A stretch of DNA of 64,000 nt from a virus, in IMG/VR virus record IMGVR_UViG_3300046008_000242, positions 1 to 64,000 of that record; one strand, 5' to 3'. The translations under genes and the position numbers were made by a program. How positions within the stretch are numbered: position 1 is the stretch's first letter; every line of letters begins with the position of its first letter. A model generated the notes under the pieces. It saw only the letters and a program-made list of their open reading frames with translations, searched no databases and was not told where the DNA came from. This document shows positions 5,156 through 43,417 of this stretch, one piece after another.

Positions 5156-5317
5156 ATGTTATTTGTTGTATTCTCAAATTTTCATCATTCGAACGTAGTT
5201 AATGTAATCCGACTTAACGATTCATTAATATATCTTATTAACATGATTAAACTAAATAAAAATGACAACCGCGAAGTCCACACTTCCGTTGTCTCTAATC
5301 AAACTCACAGGAATTTT

Positions 5318-6355
5318 ATGACCAGCAATAATACATATATCGATAAAATAATCGAATTATCTAACGACAGTCCTCAAACAGCAGAGTACATTCTAATCGT
5401 ATCTAATGCCAGAATCAGAGCATCCACTAAAAAAGAATCAAAGATAATTTTAGGATACACAGAAGAACACCATATATTACCTAGATCATTTAAGATGGGT
5501 GGAGAAACGGATAAATTGAATTATGCATATCTATCTGCAAGAGAACATTACAGATGCCATCAATTGTTAATAGAGATGGGATTAAAACGTAATTTACACG
5601 CTAAGATGATTCAGGCCTTCGGATTGTTATGTACGGATGGTAAACATAAATTTATCACCGAAGAAGAATATCAAGAGTTGAATATATTACTAAGCATTCA
5701 TCATCATATGAAAAATCCAGAATTAAGAGAACAATATTTTAAGAAAACTGGATATTATACCCCATCTCAAAATCCAGAATGTAAAGAAAAGAAGAAACGC
5801 ACCAATTTTAAGAAAACTGGATTCATTAGTAATTTGGCTAATCCAGAATTAAGAGAACAATATTCTCAAAATTATTTGGAGGAAACCGGATATACACATA
5901 ATATGAAAAATCCAGAATGTAAAGAAATGATGAAACATAACTTGGAAATAAAATTTACTAGACCATTAGTTCTACAAATTCAACAAGATATAGAAAAATA
6001 TAATGTCATCGATCCAAGAAAAATTATGGGAATTAATTCCACTGATTGGAGGCAAGCCGATAATGGAAAACTATATGAAGGTTCTATCAAGTTCTATAAA
6101 CATTTAGATGAGCGTAAAATTAAGATAAAAGAGTACGAATGTAGGATAAACGAGATTAATTCCGCATTTAAATCAATAGATGATAAACAATCCTTGATTT
6201 CATGTATCTTAGAAATCAAGGATTTTTATAACATAAAAAATCATACTGTTATAATGGGAACGCGTAGAAACTGGAAGAGATTAAATGTGATAGAATTAAA
6301 AATTGCATTAGAAAAGATATTACAACATACTGTTGATAAATTCTATATCAATTAG
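5318..6355 (+). CDS. HNH homing endonuclease with repeated DNA-binding modules
   Basis: The only convincing plus-strand gene in the window. I start at 5318 (MTSNNTYIDKIIEL) because AGGAATTTT precedes it; an open frame also extends back to 5156. Residues about 50-90 hold the HNH core: EEHHILPRSFKMGG, then KLNYAYLSAREHYRCHQLL. The middle has repeated NUMOD-like modules (KNPELREQYFKKTGY, NPECKEKKK, NPELREQYSQNYLEETGY, KNPECKEMMK) likely to read DNA. It lies between two copies of the gene 45 start, which suggests homing into this junction. Expected to make a sequence-specific break that drives its own copying. Confidence 0.88.
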   Translation: MTSNNTYIDKIIELSNDSPQTAEYILIVSNARIRASTKKESKIILGYTEEHHILPRSFKMGGETDKLNYAYLSAREHYRCHQLLIEMGLKRNLHAKMIQAFGLLCTDGKHKFITEEEYQELNILLSIHHHMKNPELREQYFKKTGYYTPSQNPECKEKKKRTNFKKTGFISNLANPELREQYSQNYLEETGYTHNMKNPECKEMMKHNLEIKFTRPLVLQIQQDIEKYNVIDPRKIMGINSTDWRQADNGKLYEGSIKFYKHLDERKIKIKEYECRINEINSAFKSIDDKQSLISCILEIKDFYNIKNHTVIMGTRRNWKRLNVIELKIALEKILQHTVDKFYIN

Positions 6356-10809: not shown

Positions 10810-11481
10810 TTAATTGTGGGATTCAGCTAATTCTCTCAACAGAGATAATCCATATTCAAATTTGGTCATAACCTTAACCGGTTCTACCATGACAACGGGA
10901 TCCAATTGTAGATTGATTGGTTTATCCGAATCTTTCAACCATCTACTATTTGCTTCGAAGTAATATCCTTTCTTATCTTTAGATTCCACCTTAATGTTAT
11001 TGGTTCCATCGTTATTAAATCCTTCATGTAATCTTGCTCTTGTTTCCTTCAACCATTGAATTGCTTGTTCCTTCTCATCAAGTTTAAAGATCTTCTGAGT
11101 TGGAACCCTGTTAATTGAAACTCTGGCAACATAGAATCCTCTCTTGTCTAATGATAACCCTTTGATTCCAGTTGTTGAATTCTTACTCAATTTTGAATTC
11201 ATCTTATTCTGTTGTCTAGTTGCTTCTCTTAGATTATCCCAACGTAAATCTGACTGATTGTTATTTTTGAAGTCGATTTCATGTTCAGGAAATTTGCCTG
11301 TCATATAAAGCCAAGCCAGACGATGAGCAAGATAAGATGTTCCGTCGATATTGATTTTGGTGTATCCAGTTCTTTTGTCAACAGACCCTTTACGTTTTCT
11401 ATCCAATTTACCAACGATAACGCCAGCTTCTGGTTTGTATTCAAATCTTGCTCTAAATTGTCCTGCCATTAAAATTGCCAT
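10810..11481 (-). CDS. HNH endonuclease with AP2-like DNA-binding region
   Basis: A 223-residue homing-type nuclease. N-terminal HNH_3-like part: KINIDGTSYLAHRLAWLYMTGKFPEHEIDFKNNNQSDLRWDNLREATRQQN, with the characteristic HRLAW, N-N and LR-AT positions (here HEIDFKN, where the usual HIDH is partly altered, so activity is uncertain). Then an AP2-like stretch: TGIKGLSLDKRGFYVARVSIN followed by RVPTQKIFKLDEKEQAIQWLKETRARLH. The C-terminal ~60 residues are unassigned. It has its own CTTTCG/TATAAT promoter and terminator and sits between repeat units C and D. Confidence 0.88.
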   Translation of the reverse strand: MAILMAGQFRARFEYKPEAGVIVGKLDRKRKGSVDKRTGYTKINIDGTSYLAHRLAWLYMTGKFPEHEIDFKNNNQSDLRWDNLREATRQQNKMNSKLSKNSTTGIKGLSLDKRGFYVARVSINRVPTQKIFKLDEKEQAIQWLKETRARLHEGFNNDGTNNIKVESKDKKGYYFEANSRWLKDSDKPINLQLDPVVMVEPVKVMTKFEYGLSLLRELAESHN

Positions 11482-12427: not shown

Positions 12428-12595
12428 ACTTTTAATGTATTTATTAAATCTATCTTCATGTATCTGATTATAACAGTAATAACATTTCCAATATCCATTG
12501 AAGATTCCTTTCCTCAATCTATGATATTCTAATGCGTCTGGTCTAATCGATCTACATTCATCTAATGTCTTAAACAAGTAATTTCGATTATCCAT
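12416..12595 (-). CDS. Small cysteine-containing protein, 59 aa
   Basis: Reads MDNRNYLFKTLDECRSIRPD and later GYWKCYYCYNQIHEDRF; the CYYC pair with nearby His could bind zinc, though a second pair is not obvious. The ATG overlaps the last codons of gene 52. The 3' end contains the promoter of the next gene. Similar short ORFs follow topoisomerase genes in other phages only by analogy; function unknown. Confidence 0.55.
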   Translation of the reverse strand: MDNRNYLFKTLDECRSIRPDALEYHRLRKGIFNGYWKCYYCYNQIHEDRFNKYIKSLSI

Positions 12596-13898
12596 ATACG
12601 TTTAATTCATTCAATTCCTTAATATACATCTTGACTGCGGTTGTCTTAGACAAAGTCGAAATCTCCTTATTCAGTTTATCGATATACAAATCCAACTTCT
12701 TAATATCATCCGCAGTCAAATTGTAAATTCTAATCTGTAACAATTCATCAACATTCTCAAATCCTTCAAACATCAATAATGATTCAAGTTCCTTCTTTGA
12801 TTTACTTGAGAACATCTTAGCATTTTCAATATAGAATTGGATAAATCGTTTCTTCTCAACAGACCAATTCAAATCATCTGTCAACATTTCTAATTGCTTG
12901 ATACGTCGTTCATCGTACTTCTTCAATCTAAAATCAACAAAATGTTTAACAATATCTTGAGTGGTTCCAAACACCTTAATCTTACCATTTTCATCCCATA
13001 ACGTTAAGTTCTGGGACATTGGTGATTCTAATTTGAATTTCTTGATAATCTCTTCATGAGATAATTTGTCGATTGGTTTGGTTGTTGTAATAAGGAAGTC
13101 GAATGATTCTTCGGTTGATGTATTCTTGAAATCTTTGATAAATCCATCATCTTGTAATTTAAACAGATGTTTCTTATACGTATCATTGAACATTCCAATA
13201 GGAAGTTCCGTTACATGAATCTTAGTTGGTGATATAATTTCATAACAACCTGTTACAAGGAATTTGGATTCATCCTTTCTAATAGTTCCTCTGAATCCTT
13301 TATACCATGGGAGTAATTCTTCTGGTTGTCTGTTTTCCAAGATGGAAAGGATGTTCTGTTTGATATCATCAGGATTGTAATTTAAGATAGTTGACGCAAA
13401 TCCTGTGCCAACACCAGTTGCTCCGTTGATTAGAACATTTGGTAAGATTGGAATGTAATATCTAGGTTCAATTGATTCACCATCATCTTTTAGAAATTCT
13501 AGGATGACATCATCTTCCTTCTTGAATATCTTACGGAAGACTGATGAGAATTCAGTGAAGATATATCTTGGAGCAGCGGATTCTTTATCAAGTCTTGACC
13601 CAAATTGTCCGTTTGGTAGTAAGTAATTAACATTATTAGACCCTGGATAATTTCTAGCCATGCCAACCAAAGTTGTGTTAAGACTGTCTTCGCCGTGATG
13701 GTAGTTGGAAACTGATGCAATTGAACCAGAAAGTTGCACCACTTTTGCTTCACCAGAGTTCTCGCCGCGTTTAATCATACCATAGATACATTTACGTTGA
13801 GACACTTTGAATCCGTCGATTACGTTTGGAATAGACCGTTGGCAATCATAAATTGAAAAATGGATGAATTCGTCATTGAAAAATTGTTGCACTTTCAT
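12588..13898 (-). CDS. 52: DNA topoisomerase II medium subunit gp52
   Basis: 436 residues, close to T4 gp52 (442). It is the breakage-reunion subunit of the phage type II topoisomerase: start MKVQQFFNDEFIHFSIYDCQRSIPNVIDGFK, QRKCIYGM, the SGSIASVSNYHHGE box, and the catalytic tyrosine Tyr112 in SAAPRYIF. A VGTGFASTILNYNPDDI segment and a coiled-coil-rich C-terminal tower follow. It partners with the gp39 product encoded upstream in the same direction. Confidence 0.96.
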   Translation of the reverse strand: MKVQQFFNDEFIHFSIYDCQRSIPNVIDGFKVSQRKCIYGMIKRGENSGEAKVVQLSGSIASVSNYHHGEDSLNTTLVGMARNYPGSNNVNYLLPNGQFGSRLDKESAAPRYIFTEFSSVFRKIFKKEDDVILEFLKDDGESIEPRYYIPILPNVLINGATGVGTGFASTILNYNPDDIKQNILSILENRQPEELLPWYKGFRGTIRKDESKFLVTGCYEIISPTKIHVTELPIGMFNDTYKKHLFKLQDDGFIKDFKNTSTEESFDFLITTTKPIDKLSHEEIIKKFKLESPMSQNLTLWDENGKIKVFGTTQDIVKHFVDFRLKKYDERRIKQLEMLTDDLNWSVEKKRFIQFYIENAKMFSSKSKKELESLLMFEGFENVDELLQIRIYNLTADDIKKLDLYIDKLNKEISTLSKTTAVKMYIKELNELNVYG

Positions 13899-13906
13899 AT
13901 TTTATC

Positions 13907-14512
13907 CTAAATTACCTTAGAAGAAATTACCATACGTTTCATTAAATGTTTATTTGTTTCGCCCCATATATTAGAAGTTTGTTTAAAATCTTTCCAATGT
14001 TCTGGAGATTTCATCTCAATAAGTTCTTTTGTCTGGAAATCGAAGAAATAAATGTTTAATTCTTTGGCAAAAGCCTTGCTGATACATTTTTCCCAAAATC
14101 GTTTACCATCAAAACTTTGTTCAGAATCTGTGACAATAGTTTTAAAAACAGGTAACAGATATTCAAATAACATTTTAGCAGGAATTCCGTCTAGGTATAA
14201 CTCATCAGGACTAGCCCAAACCGCAGATTGCCAAACGTATTGACCTCCAAGTTGTTTCTTATTATCAACTTTGTAAATCATATTATATGTAATCTGTTGG
14301 ATTTTGTCATCTAAACAGAAATAATTACCACCAGATTTATACATAGATGCGTGTTCATTGATTTTAAAAATCAATTTCTTATGTCTATCTCGTTTCATCT
14401 CAAGATAAAATTCCTTATTACTATTCTTATCTTCTAATTCCACTGGACTCCAATGACCAATCAATTTTGGCATCTCATTTAAAACCTCAACATATTCGCT
14501 AAACGATGACAT
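13907..14512 (-). CDS. Hypothetical protein, 201 aa
   Basis: Lies between gene 52 and the C-terminal part of 39. Starts MSSFSEYVEVLNEMPKLIGHWSP; contains YLEMKRDRHKKLIFKIN and GGQYVWQSAVWASPDELYLDGIPAKMLFEYLLPVF. Aromatic-rich, no signal peptide or clear catalytic motif. A CTTTTA-18-TATAAT sequence just upstream (about 14537-14566) may be its promoter. Function unknown. Confidence 0.7.
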   Translation of the reverse strand: MSSFSEYVEVLNEMPKLIGHWSPVELEDKNSNKEFYLEMKRDRHKKLIFKINEHASMYKSGGNYFCLDDKIQQITYNMIYKVDNKKQLGGQYVWQSAVWASPDELYLDGIPAKMLFEYLLPVFKTIVTDSEQSFDGKRFWEKCISKAFAKELNIYFFDFQTKELIEMKSPEHWKDFKQTSNIWGETNKHLMKRMVISSKVI

Positions 14513-14569: not shown

Positions 14570-15103
14570 CTATTCGATGTTCAACCATTGTTTACGTAAA
14601 TCCGCTGAATCAGAATTCTTGCTGAATGCTAATTTGATTGAATTTGAATCATGAATATCTTCAATTGTATATTGGACCAAGTTCTTATCAGAATTTGCTA
14701 GATATCCTTTGAAATCTTTTGCTGTAGATGTACCTAATCCTTTGAAGTATTTTGATGTAAATTTCTTTGTGTTAGTTGATTTCCATTGGTCAAATTCATT
14801 CTCATTGTAAAATTCTAATATGTCTTTACCAATAGTTACCTTAATCAAAGGGGTTCTGAATCTATAGATGTATCCAAGTTCAAATAATTCAGGCCAGAAC
14901 GTATGGAATATGTTGATTAACAATCCAATGATATGAGATCCATCGCAATTATGAGTTAAAATGTAATTCGTTGAATCTTTATGTCTGACGTAAAATGTAT
15001 GATGGTCTTTGACTGTCAAATCATATGTTGTAATTGTTTTAGTGATTTCTTCAATTTTATCAATATTGCAGATAATGTAATCTTCTAAGTTAAATTCGTT
15101 CAT
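14570..15103 (-). CDS. 39: Split-intein C half fused to topoisomerase gp39 C-terminal part
   Basis: Residues 1-52 are an intein C fragment: block F-like YDLTVKDHHTFYVRHKDS and block G-like YILTHN, ending His-Asn, the residues that cyclise to release the intein. Residue 53 is Cys, the +1 nucleophile. The following 125 residues are gp39 C-extein: CDGSHIIGLLIN, FWPELFELGYIYRFRTPL and KYFKGLGTSTAKDFKGY. Ligation to the N part restores the TOPRIM metal site DADCDGSHI. The ATG overlaps the stop of the endonuclease gene (ATGA). Without splicing this piece is inert. Confidence 0.93.
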   Translation of the reverse strand: MNEFNLEDYIICNIDKIEEITKTITTYDLTVKDHHTFYVRHKDSTNYILTHNCDGSHIIGLLINIFHTFWPELFELGYIYRFRTPLIKVTIGKDILEFYNENEFDQWKSTNTKKFTSKYFKGLGTSTAKDFKGYLANSDKNLVQYTIEDIHDSNSIKLAFSKNSDSADLRKQWLNIE

Positions 15104-16341
15104 AATTTTATTAAAATTCCTTTGTTTAATTTGGCGTGTTCGACAGCTTCGATTATTTTGTCTAATGATATTGATTTAGATGTTTGTTCCCAAATTACAA
15201 TTATACTATAATTTAATTGTAAAATTTTATCTAATCGTAAATCGTCAATAATCCATTTTTCGGAAGCGGATAATTTCAAATTTTTATTAAATTGTTCAGG
15301 ATGCCATATGGATGGATTACAATGCCAATAATCTCCAAAGAATTCAATAATTACATCTTTATCTTTCAATTTAGCGTCAACGGATAGATTTCTAGGTTTG
15401 AAATCTATCTTATATTCTCTTTCCAATTCATACACAGTTTCAATTCTATCTAGAAATCTATCGCTTGATTTCGATTTAGTTGTACCTAATGTAGAACGTT
15501 TTCGATTATCTTTATGTAATTCCCATTTAATCTTACCTTCTTCAACACCAAATTTGTTAATGAAGAATTGTTCATTATTTGCATTATTTTTACTAATTTT
15601 ATCGCATCGTTCATCGTATTTAATTTTACCAATTTCATCACCATATCTAATTTTATAATCTGGTAAAGAAACTGTTTTACCTTCCCAAGAATAATTTGGA
15701 TCGTAAATACAATCAGAAACTTTCATAGATTGAGCTTCTTTGAATGGTATTTTATGAACCATACTCAAGAAAATGGTAGAACCTCCTATTTTTGACCATA
15801 ACAATTTTGAATAAGGTTTTTCAGGCCAAATTTTATTGAATGTTTTTATTTTACATTCTTCGGTATTACAAAAATAATTGATATGAGATCGTTTGAAAGT
15901 TTTATTTTTAAAATCATACTCATATTCTATATTGTTTGCCAATTTATCACAACATCCGCATATTTCATTTTCATTGAATGTATCTTTATCAAGTTCTGTG
16001 AAAAAGGTTTTAACATAATCAGTCAACTCCCCGAATCCACATTTTGAACTTTTTAAATGCACCGCAACATACGTTGAATTAACTTTCATATTCAATTTCG
16101 CATTACAATGTTCGCAAATCCATTCTTCTTTTTCATATGGTTTACTGAAATGGAATTCTTTGGAAGAAGAATTCCATTTTATTTCCTTCAAATTCGATTC
16201 ATATAAAAATTTATCATCTTGGAAATTTTTACATTTATAATGGAAATGTGTTGTACAATAATCTAAAACATTATGATGTTCTGTTATATGTTTCGTCAAA
16301 TTGTCAAATAAATTATTACATTCTAAACATTCACGTTTCAT
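15100..16341 (-). CDS. Vsr-like homing endonuclease in a fractured gene 39
   Basis: A 413-residue nuclease encoded between the two split-intein halves. N-terminal zinc-finger-like modules: CLECNNLFDNLTKHITEHH, ICEHCNAKL and CGCCDKL. A middle module (FGVEEGKIKWELHKDNRK) recurs in other homing proteins. The C-terminal Vsr-like domain shows VDAKLKDKDVIIEFFGDYWH, a CNPSIWHPEQ segment, WIIDDLRLDKILQLNY and VIWEQ. Its start overlaps the stop of the N half and its stop overlaps the start of the C half. This matches the published fractured-gene class in which such a nuclease separates split-intein halves. Confidence 0.93.
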   Translation of the reverse strand: MKRECLECNNLFDNLTKHITEHHNVLDYCTTHFHYKCKNFQDDKFLYESNLKEIKWNSSSKEFHFSKPYEKEEWICEHCNAKLNMKVNSTYVAVHLKSSKCGFGELTDYVKTFFTELDKDTFNENEICGCCDKLANNIEYEYDFKNKTFKRSHINYFCNTEECKIKTFNKIWPEKPYSKLLWSKIGGSTIFLSMVHKIPFKEAQSMKVSDCIYDPNYSWEGKTVSLPDYKIRYGDEIGKIKYDERCDKISKNNANNEQFFINKFGVEEGKIKWELHKDNRKRSTLGTTKSKSSDRFLDRIETVYELEREYKIDFKPRNLSVDAKLKDKDVIIEFFGDYWHCNPSIWHPEQFNKNLKLSASEKWIIDDLRLDKILQLNYSIIVIWEQTSKSISLDKIIEAVEHAKLNKGILIKL

Positions 16342-18101
16342 GATTTCTTTTTTAAAATTTTATCTGTTGATTTTATGTCTTTAAACATAACTTTAATGAT
16401 TTTACCATCTCTCCAAATTACATGTTTATGTTCTGGAGTACCTTCGATAATATCTTCGCCAGAGGTGATTCGAATTACCGTATCTGTTGATTTCATATTG
16501 ACATATTCAACTGGTTTGTATTCATTCAGATGCGTCAACACGTTATCTTCCAATGGATTAACATCAGAGATAAGTTTTTCACCTTTATCCGTCAATACAT
16601 AATGTTCTTCCGTAATACAATCCGCATCAGTGAGGAAACACATCTTACCAAATCTCAATGGACTCATTGGTGTAACTTGTTCACCGAGTTTCAATCCCAT
16701 GATGGTTAAGATACTTTTGAATTCAGTATTCTCCATCAGTTTCTTGGCATCGATATCCGTTACATTTAATGGTTTACCTTTTAATGAAAATACTCCATGT
16801 AATTCAGGATCTCTAGCTGACATAATGGCACTGGAGGCTGAATTCCCCTCTGTTAGGAAGAGGATGCACTTGCTTCTATCTTTCTTCTCATTGGCATCCT
16901 CAAATTTGTCTACTCTAGCTGGATTCAATTTGTCCACAGACTTGTTCAACTTTCTTAATTCAGCATTCTTAAGAGCATTTTCCTTTGCTTCAGCCCAGTC
17001 TAAAATTGATTGTACAATACTTGATTCAATTATCTTTTTGATGAATTTATCGGATACAACAAATGATGTTCCAAATGTTTTTGGTTCATTAATTAGATCT
17101 TCTTTGGTCTGGCTAGAATATCTTGGTCTAACAATGTTACAATTGATGAACAGATTGATATGATTTTTAATCTCTGATGGTTTAATATCAATTTTATGTT
17201 TCTTTGTGATATATGTTCTTAATTTGTTTACAATTTGGTCTGAAATATATCCAACATGATTACCACCGATATAGGTTTCCGTATTATTGACAAACGATAC
17301 ATGAGAGAAACTTCCATCAGATTTGCTTACACCGATTTGCCAATTTTCATTTTGTTCAAAAATGTAATCATCAGTGTATAGTTTGATGTAGTCTTCAAAC
17401 GACTTAATTTCAATACGTTCTTCATTCAGATAAATCTTCAATTTCGAATTACACGCGGCAACATCATATACTCTTTTGACTAATTTGTTATAATTATCCG
17501 AATCAATACCATTCATCCCAAATCTAACAAAATCTGTATCATAAGTGATTTTGGTAAATTTCTTGGTTGATTTTTTAACAACAGGTTCAGTTTTATCTTT
17601 TGAATTGTTTGAATGTGTCTGAGTAAATTCTAATTTACCATCTGCGGTGTTGACAATAAATTGATTTGAGAAGATATTGGTGAGAGCCGAACCTTCTCCA
17701 TTTTGACCAGTTAAGAAGTCATCAGAATCATCATCAAAATTTGAACCTGATTTTAATTCGAAAATCATTTCAGGGATATATTGTTGATGTTCCTTATGTA
17801 TAGCAACAACAATACCACCATTATCTTCTACAGAAATAGTTCCTGTATCTCTGTCCACATTAACTTTAATGGTATTGAGATGCGACCCTTCAGCAGTTTT
17901 AGAAAAATCAACGGAGTTTGAAATAATCTCATCGAAAATCTTAATGAATGCTGGATTCCATGTTAATTCTTTCTTCTTGAATTTTGAATCTTCCAACACA
18001 TATGAATCTGACGTATGTGGATTGATGGAACCGATGTATCTTCCAGGGCGTAATAATACATGTTCAAGGTCGGTAAGTTTTTTAAATTTTTGTTCAATCA
18101 T
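16338..18101 (-). CDS. 39: Topoisomerase gp39 N-terminal part fused to split-intein N half
   Basis: Residues 1-494 are type II topoisomerase large subunit: LLRPGRYIGSINPHT, FDEIISNSVDFSK and SVEDNGGI (GHKL ATPase), GQNGEGSAL, then LFLTEGNSASSAIMSARD and MCFLTDAD of the TOPRIM domain. Residues 495-587 are an intein N fragment starting CITEEHYVLTDKGEKLI (catalytic Cys1) with block B GTPEHKHVIWRDG. The intein cuts between the aspartates of the DxD metal motif, so the enzyme should be active only after trans-splicing; the mature product would be about 619 residues. Upstream TATAAT near 18135 may be its -10 box. Confidence 0.95.
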   Translation of the reverse strand: MIEQKFKKLTDLEHVLLRPGRYIGSINPHTSDSYVLEDSKFKKKELTWNPAFIKIFDEIISNSVDFSKTAEGSHLNTIKVNVDRDTGTISVEDNGGIVVAIHKEHQQYIPEMIFELKSGSNFDDDSDDFLTGQNGEGSALTNIFSNQFIVNTADGKLEFTQTHSNNSKDKTEPVVKKSTKKFTKITYDTDFVRFGMNGIDSDNYNKLVKRVYDVAACNSKLKIYLNEERIEIKSFEDYIKLYTDDYIFEQNENWQIGVSKSDGSFSHVSFVNNTETYIGGNHVGYISDQIVNKLRTYITKKHKIDIKPSEIKNHINLFINCNIVRPRYSSQTKEDLINEPKTFGTSFVVSDKFIKKIIESSIVQSILDWAEAKENALKNAELRKLNKSVDKLNPARVDKFEDANEKKDRSKCILFLTEGNSASSAIMSARDPELHGVFSLKGKPLNVTDIDAKKLMENTEFKSILTIMGLKLGEQVTPMSPLRFGKMCFLTDADCITEEHYVLTDKGEKLISDVNPLEDNVLTHLNEYKPVEYVNMKSTDTVIRITSGEDIIEGTPEHKHVIWRDGKIIKVMFKDIKSTDKILKKKS

Positions 18102-19068: not shown

Positions 19069-20418
19069 TTACATTTTAATCAATTTCTTAGATTTAATCC
19101 AATTGTTATCAATATCATGTTCTGTTGTTATCAACTTAGACTGGACATTAGAACCATCGCTCAATTTAACCAATTCATTTTCTCCAATTAAAATATACAA
19201 TTCTCCGAACCATATCTTAATCATCCTGTCAGCAGAATTCATTGATGTTCTAATTTCATCACGTTTGGTGTTATCAACAGAACCAGAGATATAATGGATT
19301 TCTCTATCATTACATTTTTCCTTTAACATTTTATGTAATGGAACACCGTGTTTCTCTACATATTGGAATAAGATTAAAGTGGTTTCCTGTTGTGATAATG
19401 CCAGATTAACAATAAATTTATTACGTTTGTCATTCTGGACAATCCAATCTAGTTCCTTCTGGTATTCAGTCTTGGTCATCAATTTCTTTGTATCGGTATC
19501 ATAATCTAACAGGATACATGAAATGTCTAATGATGTTACACTGTTATCATCCATCAATTCTTTGGTTGTAATTACTTTGAATACCTTACCAAACAAGCCT
19601 GTTAATTGTAATTCGGATATATGTTTACCATCTAATGTTCCAGTTGTCCCTATTCTAATGGAAGTGTTTGGCATATTGTTAAGCAATTTTGTTACAACGT
19701 TTGCTTTATATTGGTGGCACTCGTCGCCACAGACTACGTCGAATCCAGCAACAACTGATACATCATGCTGTAGGGTCTGCCATGTGGATATAACGCATTT
19801 CTTCTTGTAATCTTTTAGTAGACCAGAATAAATCCTTGAACAATTTTCTTGTACATTCCAACCATTATGAGACGAATAATCTTCAAAATCTTTATACATC
19901 TGGTCGACTAGCATAGTGCTTGGGACAATCATCAAACAATTCATATCATTTTCAATATACCAACGAATAATTCCGTATAAAATCAAGGACTTACCACTAG
20001 AAGTTGGACTCAAAATTATGATTCTTTTGGATTTTATGGCTTCATGGATAGCTCTTATTTGATAATCTCTTATTTCAATTTTAACTCCACGAGCATGTAT
20101 GTTTAGATTGTTGATATATTGTTCTATTTCAGAATAAGAAACATCTGTTTGTTCTATTACAGTCCCTTCCAATTCAATTTCATAATCGTTTATCTTGGCA
20201 AATTTTTCAATGTATGATAGTAAGCCAACATGAATCTTTTTGGTGGCATGAGAATACAAATATATCTTACCGTCCCACAGTTTATTCTTCCACTTTGGAG
20301 AAAATTGGTAACCCGTTGAAAAGAATGAGAAATATGACGATAATTCTTGTTCAACACCAAAGTCTGAGGTCACATAAAGGAAGGATTCATCTAGTTTTCG
20401 TATTTTGATAATAGTCAT
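19069..20418 (-). CDS. uvsW: UvsW-like helicase with aberrant C-terminus
   Basis: 449 residues. The N domain matches UvsW (YQFSPKWKNKLWDGKIYL), then RDYQIRAI, Walker A SPTSSGKS (137-144), DECH (231-234), motif III GTTGT, and the start of the second RecA domain up to HYISGSVDNTKRDEIR. From about residue 395 the normal motifs V and VI (including the arginine fingers of a QxxGRxxR motif) are absent and replaced by IKIWFGELYILIGENELVKL and a short tail. UvsW unwinds recombination and R-loop structures; this form would lack the residues needed for ATP hydrolysis coupling. A terminator follows, so no second exon lies directly downstream. Confidence 0.88.
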   Translation of the reverse strand: MTIIKIRKLDESFLYVTSDFGVEQELSSYFSFFSTGYQFSPKWKNKLWDGKIYLYSHATKKIHVGLLSYIEKFAKINDYEIELEGTVIEQTDVSYSEIEQYINNLNIHARGVKIEIRDYQIRAIHEAIKSKRIIILSPTSSGKSLILYGIIRWYIENDMNCLMIVPSTMLVDQMYKDFEDYSSHNGWNVQENCSRIYSGLLKDYKKKCVISTWQTLQHDVSVVAGFDVVCGDECHQYKANVVTKLLNNMPNTSIRIGTTGTLDGKHISELQLTGLFGKVFKVITTKELMDDNSVTSLDISCILLDYDTDTKKLMTKTEYQKELDWIVQNDKRNKFIVNLALSQQETTLILFQYVEKHGVPLHKMLKEKCNDREIHYISGSVDNTKRDEIRTSMNSADRMIKIWFGELYILIGENELVKLSDGSNVQSKLITTEHDIDNNWIKSKKLIKM

Positions 20419-36174: not shown

Positions 36175-37455
36175 TTATTTATTAACAGAAGGACATGGTT
36201 TATAATATCCTTTCGTAAATTGAGGATTCCTTAATAGAAATTCTTCAAATGATAATTGTTCGTTTTCTTCTTTTGTGTATCTAATACTTTTAGAACCATC
36301 GTTATAGTATTTGCATCCAGAACTTTCTCCACACTTTTGTCCTCTAACGAATTCAGGATTCTGAGATAGAAATTCTTCGAATGATAATTTAGATTGTTGT
36401 TTTAAAGTGTATCTGAAATTTGTAATTCCATCTGTGTAATTTTCATATTTAGATGGATCTACAAATAATCCTTTTACAAATTCGAGATTCTGAGATAGAA
36501 ATTCTTCGAATGGTAATTCAGATTGTTGTTCTAATGTATATCTGTAATTTTTGGAACCATCATTATATGTAATCGTTCCAGCAATAGATTTTTCAGATTT
36601 ACATTGTCCTTTCGAAAATTGAAGGTTCTTAGATAGAAATTCTTCAAATGATAATTCAGATTGTTGAATGATTGTATATTTGAAATTGGTATTACCATCA
36701 GTGTACCATTTAGATCCTTTTGAAGTTTTAAAATCTTCACTTCTTCCTTCCATAAATTGAGGATTCAATTCCATAAATTCTTCAAACGACATTTCTAATT
36801 GTTGTTTTGGTGTATATTTTACATCATTGATTCCGTCGTTATACCATTTGAATCCAGCATTCTTTGGACCACCTATTTTACCACCAGATAATCCACCCTT
36901 TCTACAATCCGCAATAAATTTATCAAAATCTCTTTCTTTTCTCGCTTTATTACATTCGCTTGCATATTCTCGTCGTTGTTCTAATGTATATCCAAAGAAT
37001 CCAACACCTTTTAATTTACAAACCGCTGCTCCAATTTTACCACCATTAGAACTTCTTTTTAATAATACATCTCTTGGAGTATTAGCTATACGTCGTTTTG
37101 AATAAAAAGATCGTTGTTCGAATGTCAATGCATGTATTCCAATTTTTCTTTCCACAACAATAGAACCAAATGATACATTACCCTTACCACCAACTACCAA
37201 ATTGTATGTATCTTCTCTATCGATAAAATCTTGGTCTACTATAATCCCTTCCATCCTAAATGCCATTTCCGATGTTGAAAATGCCATCAAAGTATCTCGT
37301 TTAAAATTATTTCTACCGTGTTTCTTTATTGCAGCAGATAAAATCTTATTTGAACCAAAATACCCATCGAATTCCTTCTTAGATGTCTTATGCACACCAA
37401 CGTAAATTTTACCATTAACCAAATTTGTAGTCTTATAAACAATGTATCTAATCAT
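36175..37455 (-). CDS. GIY-YIG homing endonuclease with five tandem C-terminal repeats
   Basis: 426 residues. GIY-YIG domain at the start: IVYKTTNLVNGKIYVGVHKT, then FDGYFGSNKILSAAIKKHG. A middle helix-turn region has GGKIGG-type NUMOD motifs (NGGKIGAAVCKLKG, GGLSGGKIGGPKN). The last half is five ~40-residue repeats with the pattern (W/Y)YNDG..N.RYT..QQ.ELSFEEFL..NP.F..G, probably DNA-reading modules. Inserted between 18 and 19. Its ribosome site is buried in a 16-bp inverted repeat (37459-37534), suggesting restricted translation. Confidence 0.88.
   Translation of the reverse strand: MIRYIVYKTTNLVNGKIYVGVHKTSKKEFDGYFGSNKILSAAIKKHGRNNFKRDTLMAFSTSEMAFRMEGIIVDQDFIDREDTYNLVVGGKGNVSFGSIVVERKIGIHALTFEQRSFYSKRRIANTPRDVLLKRSSNGGKIGAAVCKLKGVGFFGYTLEQRREYASECNKARKERDFDKFIADCRKGGLSGGKIGGPKNAGFKWYNDGINDVKYTPKQQLEMSFEEFMELNPQFMEGRSEDFKTSKGSKWYTDGNTNFKYTIIQQSELSFEEFLSKNLQFSKGQCKSEKSIAGTITYNDGSKNYRYTLEQQSELPFEEFLSQNLEFVKGLFVDPSKYENYTDGITNFRYTLKQQSKLSFEEFLSQNPEFVRGQKCGESSGCKYYNDGSKSIRYTKEENEQLSFEEFLLRNPQFTKGYYKPCPSVNK
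36176..36184 (-). promoter_or_regulatory. Late promoter-like box upstream of gene 19
   Basis: TAATAAATA on the minus strand, about 30 bp before the gene 19 ATG, overlapping the end of the GIY-YIG gene. Confidence 0.5.
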
Positions 37456-40691: not shown

Positions 40692-42273
40692 AGAAATCAT
40701 ATACTTCAACTTTATCATCATCAAGACCATCATTAATATATCCTACAGGTAACATTTGTTGGTCGATATAATCCATTTGCTGATTATATAATTCTTTCCT
40801 GATATCGATATCTCCCATATCCTTGACGAAAGAAGTTGAACATAACCAACCAAAAATAACTAATGTCATTATCAAATCATCATGATTCGGAGGATCCGCA
40901 GAATAACTACCTTGTCTTTCGATGAACACAGAAAACTCCTGGATAATATCTGGGTCAAATATCAACAATCTCTTCTCCTCAATCAAAGATTTTAACATCA
41001 TACATCCTTGACGTTTAATCTTCTTGTCCATGTTAATACCCACTTCCATTGTCCCAGAAAACGATTCACATGGTATCTGTCCCTTAGGTGTCTTCTTAAT
41101 GGAAATCAAATTCTCGTATTCTAGATCGTCTTGGAGTATCTGCGCCACCTCCTTGGAACAATTAATCTCAACAATAATAAATGCGTAATTGTATTCCTTA
41201 CCAACTCGATATAATATATTAGGATATAACATAGGGGATATCTTATTATCTCTATACTTACCGACTACCTTGTATGGAAAATTGGTTACATCCATAATTG
41301 TAAATGCAGAGTAATCTCCACCTACACCCTTTGATGTATCTGCCGATATAATATATTGATGTCCTGGTATAGCACCTTCCTGTATATCTAATCCATCTCT
41401 AGAATAGATAAAAGGTATTGCTGACATTGATGATATAGAAGATGAATTAATAAGTGTCGCCGATGAACCCAGAAAACTCATCTCCACTTCTTGCATGTAT
41501 TGTAATTCTCCTAACAATTCTTTCTGTTGTTGAGCCCATTTCTCATCTCTATGTGGATGTTCGCTCCAATGAGCAGAAACTGGTATAAATCCATTTATAC
41601 CAAGTTGAGCTTCATTCCAAAATTTCCACCAATGATTATATCCTAATGGAGTAGACGATAAGATAATTTTCGTTGTTTTACCAGAAGAGATGGTGGGATA
41701 CACAGAAGCGAAGAAGGATTCAGCGATAGCATTAGGAATAATTCCGACTTCGTCTACGTACAGTAAATTCACAGATTTACCTCTGATTCCAGACGCGGAA
41801 GTTGCGGAAGAAAACACTTTAGATCCATTTTCCAATTCAAATGAACCTTTATTCCATTCTTTAACCCCTTGTTGTAACCATTTGGGTAATCCTTCAAACA
41901 TATCTTGGATACGAGACATGATTTCTCTACTGGCTGCTGCCTTATTGGCTAAAATGGCAACTGTTTTGGATTTATTGAAAATTACATAATGTAATATGTA
42001 AGATGCAGTAGTAGTAGTTTTTCCACCCTGACGGAAAAGTTGAATGATAGTCCTGTTATTCTCATGCATAGTGGTTATTATTCGTTCTTGATAACCAAAC
42101 AATTCGAAATGTATCAATCCGTAATCTAATGAAACAATCTTACAATAATTTTTTATAAAATAAATCGGATCTTGTTTACATTTAATGTATTCTTCAATCT
42201 GTTCTTGAGTGAAATCTATCGGGGCATTTGTTGATTTTAAATTAGTGTTGCCATTATATGATAACTCAACCAT
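40690..42273 (-). CDS. 17: Terminase large subunit gp17
   Basis: 527 residues; start at 42273 (MVELSYNGNTNLKSTNAPID) after AAGGAATTGACA. ATPase: IIQLFRQGGKTTTTASYILH (Walker A), LLYVDEVG (Walker B), SSTPLGYNHW (coupling). Nuclease: ISADTSKGVGGDYSAF and NHDDLIMTL acidic residues. It cuts concatemeric DNA and pumps it into the head. The start overlaps the stop of the GIY-YIG gene. Shorter than T4 gp17 (610). Confidence 0.96.
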   Translation of the reverse strand: MVELSYNGNTNLKSTNAPIDFTQEQIEEYIKCKQDPIYFIKNYCKIVSLDYGLIHFELFGYQERIITTMHENNRTIIQLFRQGGKTTTTASYILHYVIFNKSKTVAILANKAAASREIMSRIQDMFEGLPKWLQQGVKEWNKGSFELENGSKVFSSATSASGIRGKSVNLLYVDEVGIIPNAIAESFFASVYPTISSGKTTKIILSSTPLGYNHWWKFWNEAQLGINGFIPVSAHWSEHPHRDEKWAQQQKELLGELQYMQEVEMSFLGSSATLINSSSISSMSAIPFIYSRDGLDIQEGAIPGHQYIISADTSKGVGGDYSAFTIMDVTNFPYKVVGKYRDNKISPMLYPNILYRVGKEYNYAFIIVEINCSKEVAQILQDDLEYENLISIKKTPKGQIPCESFSGTMEVGINMDKKIKRQGCMMLKSLIEEKRLLIFDPDIIQEFSVFIERQGSYSADPPNHDDLIMTLVIFGWLCSTSFVKDMGDIDIRKELYNQQMDYIDQQMLPVGYINDGLDDDKVEVYDF

Positions 42274-43417
42274 TGTCAATTCCTTTGAATGTAATATCGA
42301 ATGTTTTATATACATGTTCTGGATTATCGATATAAAATCTGACTTCTTCCATTAGTGTTTCTAAATTTGCGTCGTTTAAAACTTCTGTCCATCCAAATTC
42401 ACCGTAATCGTCTTTTCTGATTAGATGTTTGTATTTGCGTTTTAATAATTGTTCGGTTTGGAATGCATGATTAATGTCTTCCATTTTCTGAAATAAAACA
42501 ACATTAGATGTATCGATGAGTTGTTTGGTATATCGCTTATAGATACTATCTCTAGACGTAATTCCAATTTTAATTTTATCATCGAACCCAACTACATAGA
42601 AATATCCATCATCGGTTAATTCTCTATTCCATAAAGATTTGTAATTTATTTTCGTTTCGACATTTCTGGATTTGAATAATTCAAATGCTTTATCCTCATC
42701 ACCATTTGTTTTACTCAGAGCCCACTCTAACGAACACGAATCTTTTCTTCTATTAGCGTCATCTATTTCTTCTTGTGGTCTAGAATTTAATGTATTTTGC
42801 CATTTATCTTGTCTTTCTTGCCAAATTAAGAACCCTTCTAACATTCCATGTTTTTCTACACATTTATCTAATGAAAAAGTAGATTGACGTTCAGATAGAA
42901 GTTTTAATGATTCTTCTTCAGAATATCCTTGTTTGGTGTAGTATTGAATTGTTGTGTTGTAATTATCATTTTCCGACATAGTCGTTTTGGCTCGTTCTAT
43001 TACGGAACCTATGGACGAAAGTTTTTCTTCATCTGTTAACTCTTCATATTTAACAAATTTCTTGGAAAATGGAGATAATCTACCACCGTGTTGATATGCT
43101 GGATTTTTATCACCTTTGATTCTATTACATTTAGATACACAAACTATCGGTCCATATTTCTCTCTATATTCTAATTGAGTTAATCCATGGACTTTAGGAT
43201 GTTCTGCTAGATCTCTAGTTCTGAACCCACAGACTCCGCATTCAACATATTCGTCTTTATCCATACCGTCTGGAAAACTAATTCTACTACGTTCTATTGT
43301 CGTTTTCCATCTGGCATCGAATGCTGATTTTTTCTTACATTCATCTGAACATAATTTAACGGAAGTGTGATATGGAGTAAATGTTTTGTTGCAATATGTG
43401 CATTGTTTTTCTTTCAT
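42266..43417 (-). CDS. GIY-YIG (T5orf172-like) homing protein with zinc fingers
   Basis: 383 residues. N-terminus has zinc-binding pairs: CTYCNKTFTPYHTSVKLCSD (CxxC...CxxxC) and ECGVCGFRTRDLAEHPKVHG. A middle module GMLEGFLIWQERQDKWQNTL resembles FGVEEGKIKWELHKDNRK in the gene 39 endonuclease. The C-terminal part YFYVVGFDDKIKIGITSRDS, then IYKRY and FQTEQLLKRKYK fits the T5orf172 branch of GIY-YIG. Inserted just upstream of 17 with 8-bp overlap, next to repeat unit G. Confidence 0.85.
   Translation of the reverse strand: MKEKQCTYCNKTFTPYHTSVKLCSDECKKKSAFDARWKTTIERSRISFPDGMDKDEYVECGVCGFRTRDLAEHPKVHGLTQLEYREKYGPIVCVSKCNRIKGDKNPAYQHGGRLSPFSKKFVKYEELTDEEKLSSIGSVIERAKTTMSENDNYNTTIQYYTKQGYSEEESLKLLSERQSTFSLDKCVEKHGMLEGFLIWQERQDKWQNTLNSRPQEEIDDANRRKDSCSLEWALSKTNGDEDKAFELFKSRNVETKINYKSLWNRELTDDGYFYVVGFDDKIKIGITSRDSIYKRYTKQLIDTSNVVLFQKMEDINHAFQTEQLLKRKYKHLIRKDDYGEFGWTEVLNDANLETLMEEVRFYIDNPEHVYKTFDITFKGIDNG

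Follow-up and report, generated by a model that had tools for sequence, protein, structure and literature searches.

A topoisomerase gene of a large T4-like phage probably fractured within its catalytic metal site by a split intein and a Vsr-type nuclease gene

The stretch analysed here (hereafter the window) comprises 64,000 nucleotides, positions 1 to 64,000 of the IMG/VR virus record IMGVR_UViG_3300046008_000242, and carries gene 39 of a large T4-like phage, encoding the large subunit of a type IIA topoisomerase, in two pieces split at the TOPRIM sequence DAD|CDG. All features of this locus are on the minus strand, and the coordinates, frames and residues of the split were rechecked in the sequence. 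The N piece (16338..18101, 587 amino acids, aa) includes a GHKL ATPase, a transducer and the first part of TOPRIM, followed by an intein N half. It matched the Pfam families DNA_gyraseB (1.7e-20) and HATPase_c (1.5e-6), with Toprim broken off at residue 494, and its residues 2-494 aligned with human TOP2B (7yq8; E 5.5e-92), the topoisomerase match ending at 494. Alignment to type IIA topoisomerases delimited an N extein of residues 1-494 (16620..18101) with the end GKMCFLTDAD, and the adjoining intein N half (16341..16619, 93 aa; CITEEHYVL..GTPEHKH..TDKILKKKS) is homologous to the N halves of other split loci. The C piece (14570..15103, 177 aa) contains the intein C half, the remaining TOPRIM and TOPRIM_C, and matched Pfam TOPRIM_C (5.3e-24) and PT-HINT (0.0016), while the Intein_splicing profile matched at 14948-15142 (E 4.4e-5). 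Its alignment with TOP2A/B begins at residue 49 or 50 (topoisomerase matches start at residues 49-53). The intein C half (14948..15103, 52 aa; MNEFNLEDY..NYILTHN), likewise defined by alignment, opens with an NLxDY motif, and the C extein (14573..14947, 125 aa) has CDGSHI as its first residues.

On TOP2B the N piece runs to residue 564 and the C piece starts at 562, so the halves abut and no enzyme residues are missing at the break; joining them restores DxDxD in a large subunit with GHKL, transducer and TOPRIM. Between the two pieces lies a free-standing nuclease gene (15100..16341, 413 aa) with Cys/His pairs on its N side and a C-terminal Vsr-type domain; it shares ATGA overlaps with the N piece stop (16338..16341) and with the C piece start (15100..15103). 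An earlier note, made from these letters without database searches, had described gene 39 as broken after TDAD, with Cys and a GTPEHKH-bearing intein N half following, which was confirmed base for base, and the C half ending in YILTHN and then Cys was also found as it had been read. The ATGA overlaps that it placed on both sides of the nuclease gene are present, its sum of about 619 residues agrees with the extein lengths (494 + 125 = 619), and the position that it gave for the intein, between metal-binding aspartates, is more exactly that between the second and the third Asp of the TOPRIM DxDxD motif.

All hallmarks of a class 1 intein are present: Cys1 (C495 of the N piece), TPEH as the TxxH of block B, the penultimate His and terminal Asn (THN), and Cys at +1. 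Like the other split loci, the window has retained Cys1, His-Asn and +1 Cys at the junctions. The window N half is 75% identical to the contiguous intein of a related phage, L001, through which the HINT fold was recognized, for the window by homology at this identity. The intein-like stretches were also considered as normal gp39 sequence, which was rejected: in the alignments that the earlier note had proposed as a check, they did not belong to gp39, and both halves joined as one query against the PDB matched the PolB1 intein of Aeromonas phage Aes123 (9hth, E 6e-5). The ratio of nonsynonymous to synonymous substitution rates (dN/dS) between the window and L001 was 0.16 for the intein N core and 0.105 for the intein C core, compared to 0.135 for gp52, the topoisomerase A subunit encoded by the intact partner gene (12588..13898; DNA_topoisoIV 2.1e-95). 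This similarity to gp52 argues for purifying selection, i.e., for both intein halves being still selected for function.

The window nuclease had no match to any Pfam family, and its class was assigned from its relatives (Pfam MTES_1575 was found in 9 out of 19), hhalign and Foldseek. The C-terminal domain (residues about 290-413; 15103..15474) aligned with Vsr at E 4e-6 in hhalign, for an E. coli Vsr query whose sequence is approximate. Independently of that query, E. coli Vsr (1vsr) was the top Foldseek match of the AlphaFold2 model (probability 1.00, TM 0.60 on target), for which the predicted local distance difference test (pLDDT) score was mostly 85–96 from residue 290 on, i.e., over the last ~120 residues. 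Residues D322, E333, F334, G336, D337, Y338, W339, H340, D366, W384 and E385 (FxGDYWH and WE) are invariant in the 19 relatives, giving a catalytic domain with the conserved acidic residues and His of the Vsr-like (EDxHD) homing endonucleases. The earlier note had predicted a zinc-finger plus Vsr-like nuclease of 413 residues: the Vsr-type part stood, while zinc-binding units are suggested by Cys/His spacing only (C5/C8, C76/C79, C128/C131 and C158/C163), most of residues 1-220 being poorly modelled. The nuclease gene has a G+C content of 26.9%, against 31–34% for the gp39 exteins and gp52, and full-length homologues occupy the same place in L107 (38% identity), L117 (37%) and L074 (35%).

The related phage L001/L002 is about 80% identical to the window in nucleotides over much of the region. 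Its gp39 is a single open reading frame (ORF) of 766 residues that contains the intein of the window at the identical position (DAD|C..HN|CDGSHI) but no nuclease gene. The AlphaFold2 model of the L001 intein (mean pLDDT 94) matched many solved inteins in Foldseek, among them the AceL NrdHF, gp41-1, Aes123 PolB1 and NrdJ-1 split inteins, at TM of about 0.73–0.84. A separate observation concerns the mosaicism of gp39 (window 16620-18101 vs. L001:4198-5694): the amino acid identity is 31–57% for residues 1-360 and then 85–95% up to the intein, the step being situated about 400 bases upstream of the intein.

Further loci were found by the pattern HNCDG[ST]HI and by profile scans, and they include topoisomerase genes split at the identical residue with homologous intein halves, in independent contigs and distant phages. 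In L107, L074/L075 and L117 the two pieces are separated by a homologous Vsr-type nuclease gene, which has their orientation and shares an ATGA overlap with the C piece; between the window and L107, gp39, the intein and gp52 diverged to a similar extent (53–64% identity). The gap of L076/L077 encodes a 390-residue protein, GIY-YIG-like by eye (IIYSYLFSNKYVYVGLT), for which Pfam gave no call. A DUF7487-type, HNH-looking gene is found in L071-L073 and a CapR-repeat nuclease-like gene in L070, both on the opposite strand, and L078 has a gap of 66 bases with nothing else. The gap of L073 (L073:4591-7690) additionally contains a D12 methyltransferase (5.7e-17) and an EcoRI-family endonuclease (5.3e-15), which form a restriction-modification pair. 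In several split-intein phages the A and B topoisomerase subunits are fused as one protein.

The site is free of the intein in LR756502 (TDADVDG), LR756501 (DEDADG), Xanthomonas phage X1 (DADQFG) and T4 (TDADHDG); at +1 they have V, A, Q or H, which indicates that Cys at +1 goes with the intein. LR756501, with its empty site, shares 87% identity with the intein-bearing L073 on one side of the insertion and 77% on the other, so the element is gained and lost between close relatives. The window arrangement is not unique, which adds to the earlier note, but part of a site-specific family of topoisomerase inteins with exchanged nucleases and one contiguous relative. We slightly favor a broader reading, according to which phage type IIA topoisomerases would have, in their DAD|xDG codons, a long-lived docking site for one split-intein lineage spanning T4-like and huge phages, whose gap cargo was exchanged (Vsr-type, GIY-YIG, DUF7487, CapR-repeat nuclease, EcoRI-like restriction-modification pair, or nothing) and which re-fused to a cis-splicing intein after cargo loss in at least one lineage (L001). 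A pattern scan of genome contigs gave mostly chance matches, together with a contiguous intein that looks unrelated and likewise interrupts DAD|CDG in a topoisomerase fragment, from a Mariprofundus bin (L063:136-603). Loci L079-L091 from the profile scan turned out to be other HINT-type or intein domains and were discarded.

In the intein tree, the window and L001 group together and L107 is next to them, both at 100% support, and L107 and all deeper members are split. A C-half opening motif, roughly [IFY]-[ND]-[LIP]-x-x-[YF], is common to the split members and absent from L001. Most simply, this would mean that the nuclease gene disappeared from L001 and its two intein halves became joined, i.e., a natural re-fusion. 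Alternatively, the nuclease region could have been re-imported into the window lineage.

The arrangement is best explained, with a probability of about 0.88 in our estimate, by gene 39 being a fractured gene, in which a class 1 split intein interrupts the DxDxD metal site of TOPRIM and the gap is occupied by a homing endonuclease gene of the Vsr (EDxHD-like) type. As read from the sequence, the locus is a fractured gene in the structural sense: the gene of a conserved enzyme is divided in two, an intein N half and an intein C half lie at the junctions, and an endonuclease has its own ORF in between. The N piece, the nuclease and the C piece would be translated as a coupled string through the ATGA overlaps; the intein halves would then associate, splice in trans and join residues 494 and 495 into a gp39 of 619 residues, the DADCDGSHI (DxDxD) site being rebuilt only in this ligated protein, which is expected to assemble with gp52. 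No second gene for a topoisomerase large subunit was found in the whole phage record (249,362 bp), and topoisomerase activity would depend on trans-splicing. The nuclease is predicted to cut alleles lacking it (an empty gene 39 or an unbroken intein), with repair copying the module in. With the break in the catalytic metal site and translation of the C piece following that of the nuclease, imprecise loss of the element should be lethal to the topoisomerase.

Several points weigh against this interpretation. The evidence for splicing, ligation and cleavage is comparative throughout, so that trans-splicing and homing of the window module are what we infer, and the nuclease activity is a prediction. 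Between the window and L107 the synonymous sites are near saturation and dN/dS is not estimable. A conflict between the intein and extein trees on nine loci (approximately unbiased, AU, test, p 0.007) had suggested horizontal transfer; after L107 and L117 were added and the split-proximal residues trimmed, the extein tree was no longer rejected by the intein data (p 0.29), and the claim was dropped as not robust to added taxa. Finally, the pieces may assemble non-covalently, as is known for T4 gp39/gp60 and for Aeh1 NrdA (PMC2988022). That they associate unspliced like T4 gp39 and gp60, the intein halves being vestigial, is nevertheless improbable: although phage enzymes in pieces do work in T4 and Aeh1 (PMC2988022), Cys1, His-Asn and +1 Cys persist in the window and in the other split loci, the intein core has a dN/dS of 0.10–0.16, and the window break is inside DxDxD, whereas T4 gp60 begins upstream and carries the whole TDADHDG.

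It is unlikely, albeit less so, that splicing works and the nuclease has ceased homing, the module being a vertical passenger or having a host-like role; the similar divergence of gp39, intein and gp52 between the window and L107 (53–64%) fits such long vertical retention, but the catalytic signature of the nuclease is invariant over 19 relatives, and its disappearance in L001 and replacement by other types elsewhere is the behaviour of a homing element. We give very little credit to the idea that the intein chiefly serves to hold back topoisomerase activity during infection, as a post-translational switch. An insertion in the catalytic metal site would indeed make activity conditional on splicing, yet the sequence has no sign of a sensor and the intein is wholly absent from close relatives of intein-bearing phages. 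The chance that the gene, with its intein, was intact and only appears broken through chimeric assembly or a sequencing artefact is negligible, even though the source is a metagenomic virus record: L107 has the same gene order with 38–64% identical proteins and the ATGA overlap at the nuclease/C-piece junction, and more independent loci split at the same point already refute it. Chance or assembly error as the source of the layout was ruled out by this recurrence in independent contigs together with the contiguous intein in L001.

Fractured genes, in which a free-standing Vsr-like endonuclease gene separates the halves of a split intein, were reportedly described by Dassa et al. 2009 in phage nucleotide-metabolism genes, including helicase, ribonucleotide reductase, IMPDH and others. 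A topoisomerase interrupted at its TOPRIM site differs from these reported cases. No report of a topoisomerase split intein was found in the literature searched, which did not cover the host-gene list of Dassa et al. 2009, and priority is not established; as far as that literature shows, the window gene is the first topoisomerase among fractured genes, and its break falls within the catalytic metal site. Among documented cases, the nearest is the PolB split intein of Aeromonas phage Aes123 (GenBank JN377899; structure 9hth), also in a replication gene of a T4-like phage and with the same order of N extein-intein N, free-standing VSR-type nuclease and intein C-C extein. Its nuclease can be aligned with that of the window (tblastn 8e-5) at an identity of only about 23%, but its host gene is a DNA polymerase and its intein is cysteine-less with Ser1 (9hth title). 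The jumbo phage MIJ3 also combines a split intein and a nuclease gene in a large phage, there in PolB with an HNH endonuclease, and a mini-intein occupies that gene in another phage (PMC6892783). Mycobacteriophage inteins at the TOPRIM active site of a primase/topoisomerase-like protein are similarly placed, and no split intein is mentioned for them (PMC5050341).

In T4, genes 39 and 60 are separated by the HNH-type MobA, and ribosomes skip a 50-nucleotide insert placed directly behind TDADHDG, perhaps as a defence against the nuclease (PMC3014915, PMC5009743, PMC2988022). The parallel with T4 39/60 drawn in the earlier note is justified for the gene, the TOPRIM motif and the splitting of the subunit by a mobile nuclease, and the window intein site (after DAD) is only three residues apart from the T4 bypass site (after DADHDG). 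The T4 gp39/gp60 break, however, lies elsewhere, upstream of the DxD motif, and T4 has no intein, its nuclease is of the HNH type and its pieces function unspliced, a ribosomal instead of a protein solution. The window locus does not belong to the mobA/bypass cassettes: open frames flank the insertion, no bypass is needed and the nuclease is Vsr-type. A few codons thus host both the intein and the T4 MobA/bypass cassette, so that different mobile strategies converge on one site. The family-level pattern of cargo exchange, restriction-modification cargo and probable natural re-fusion is more novel than the window locus itself. The closely related inteins of the window, L001 and L107 form a natural series (trans, cis, trans), in which two questions become testable: what leads to the origin or reversion of split inteins, and what advantage a homing nuclease has from dividing one. 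The new split inteins, with their long C halves and unusual opening motif, may also serve as tools.

Several minor observations were made on neighbouring genes and other mobile elements. A 201-residue gene without an assigned function (phrog_1349) is located at 13907-14512, between the gp39 C piece and gp52, and a 206-residue weak match to it is present near gp39 in L107 (L107:1828-2448). The UvsW helicase is also in two pieces, at 19069-20418 (-) of the window and at 87878-88195 (+) of record G000, about 68 kb apart on opposite strands; the N part corresponds to residues 4-409 and the C part to residues 391-498 of 2oca, and no intein C half was seen on the C part. L001 carries the same truncated UvsW N part. 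Further contiguous inteins of L001 are located in the UvsW Walker A motif (SPTS|C..HN|SGKS) and in the large terminase (L001:1669-3417 and L001:9962-11941); the former is absent from the window UvsW and the latter apparently absent from the window terminase, just upstream of which a nuclease-like gene (42266-43417) is found. The phage is rich in homing-endonuclease-like genes, with others at 5156-6355 (+), 10810-11481 (-, by eye only) and 36175-37455 (-), and another intein in record G000, contiguous and with Thr at +1, lies in a UvsX/RecA-looking gene at about 195392-195691 (-). An intein also appears to break a likely ribonucleotide reductase in L086:6835-9671; the N half there is fused with a GIY-YIG-like domain, and an intein C half begins the following ORF. 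Finally, Klebsiella phage phiKp_21 (L102:505-5268) has an apparent unannotated fractured gene, B-family polymerase-looking, consisting of an 842-aa ORF that terminates in an intein-like N half, then a Vsr-type nuclease and after it an ORF with ..ILVHN|T.

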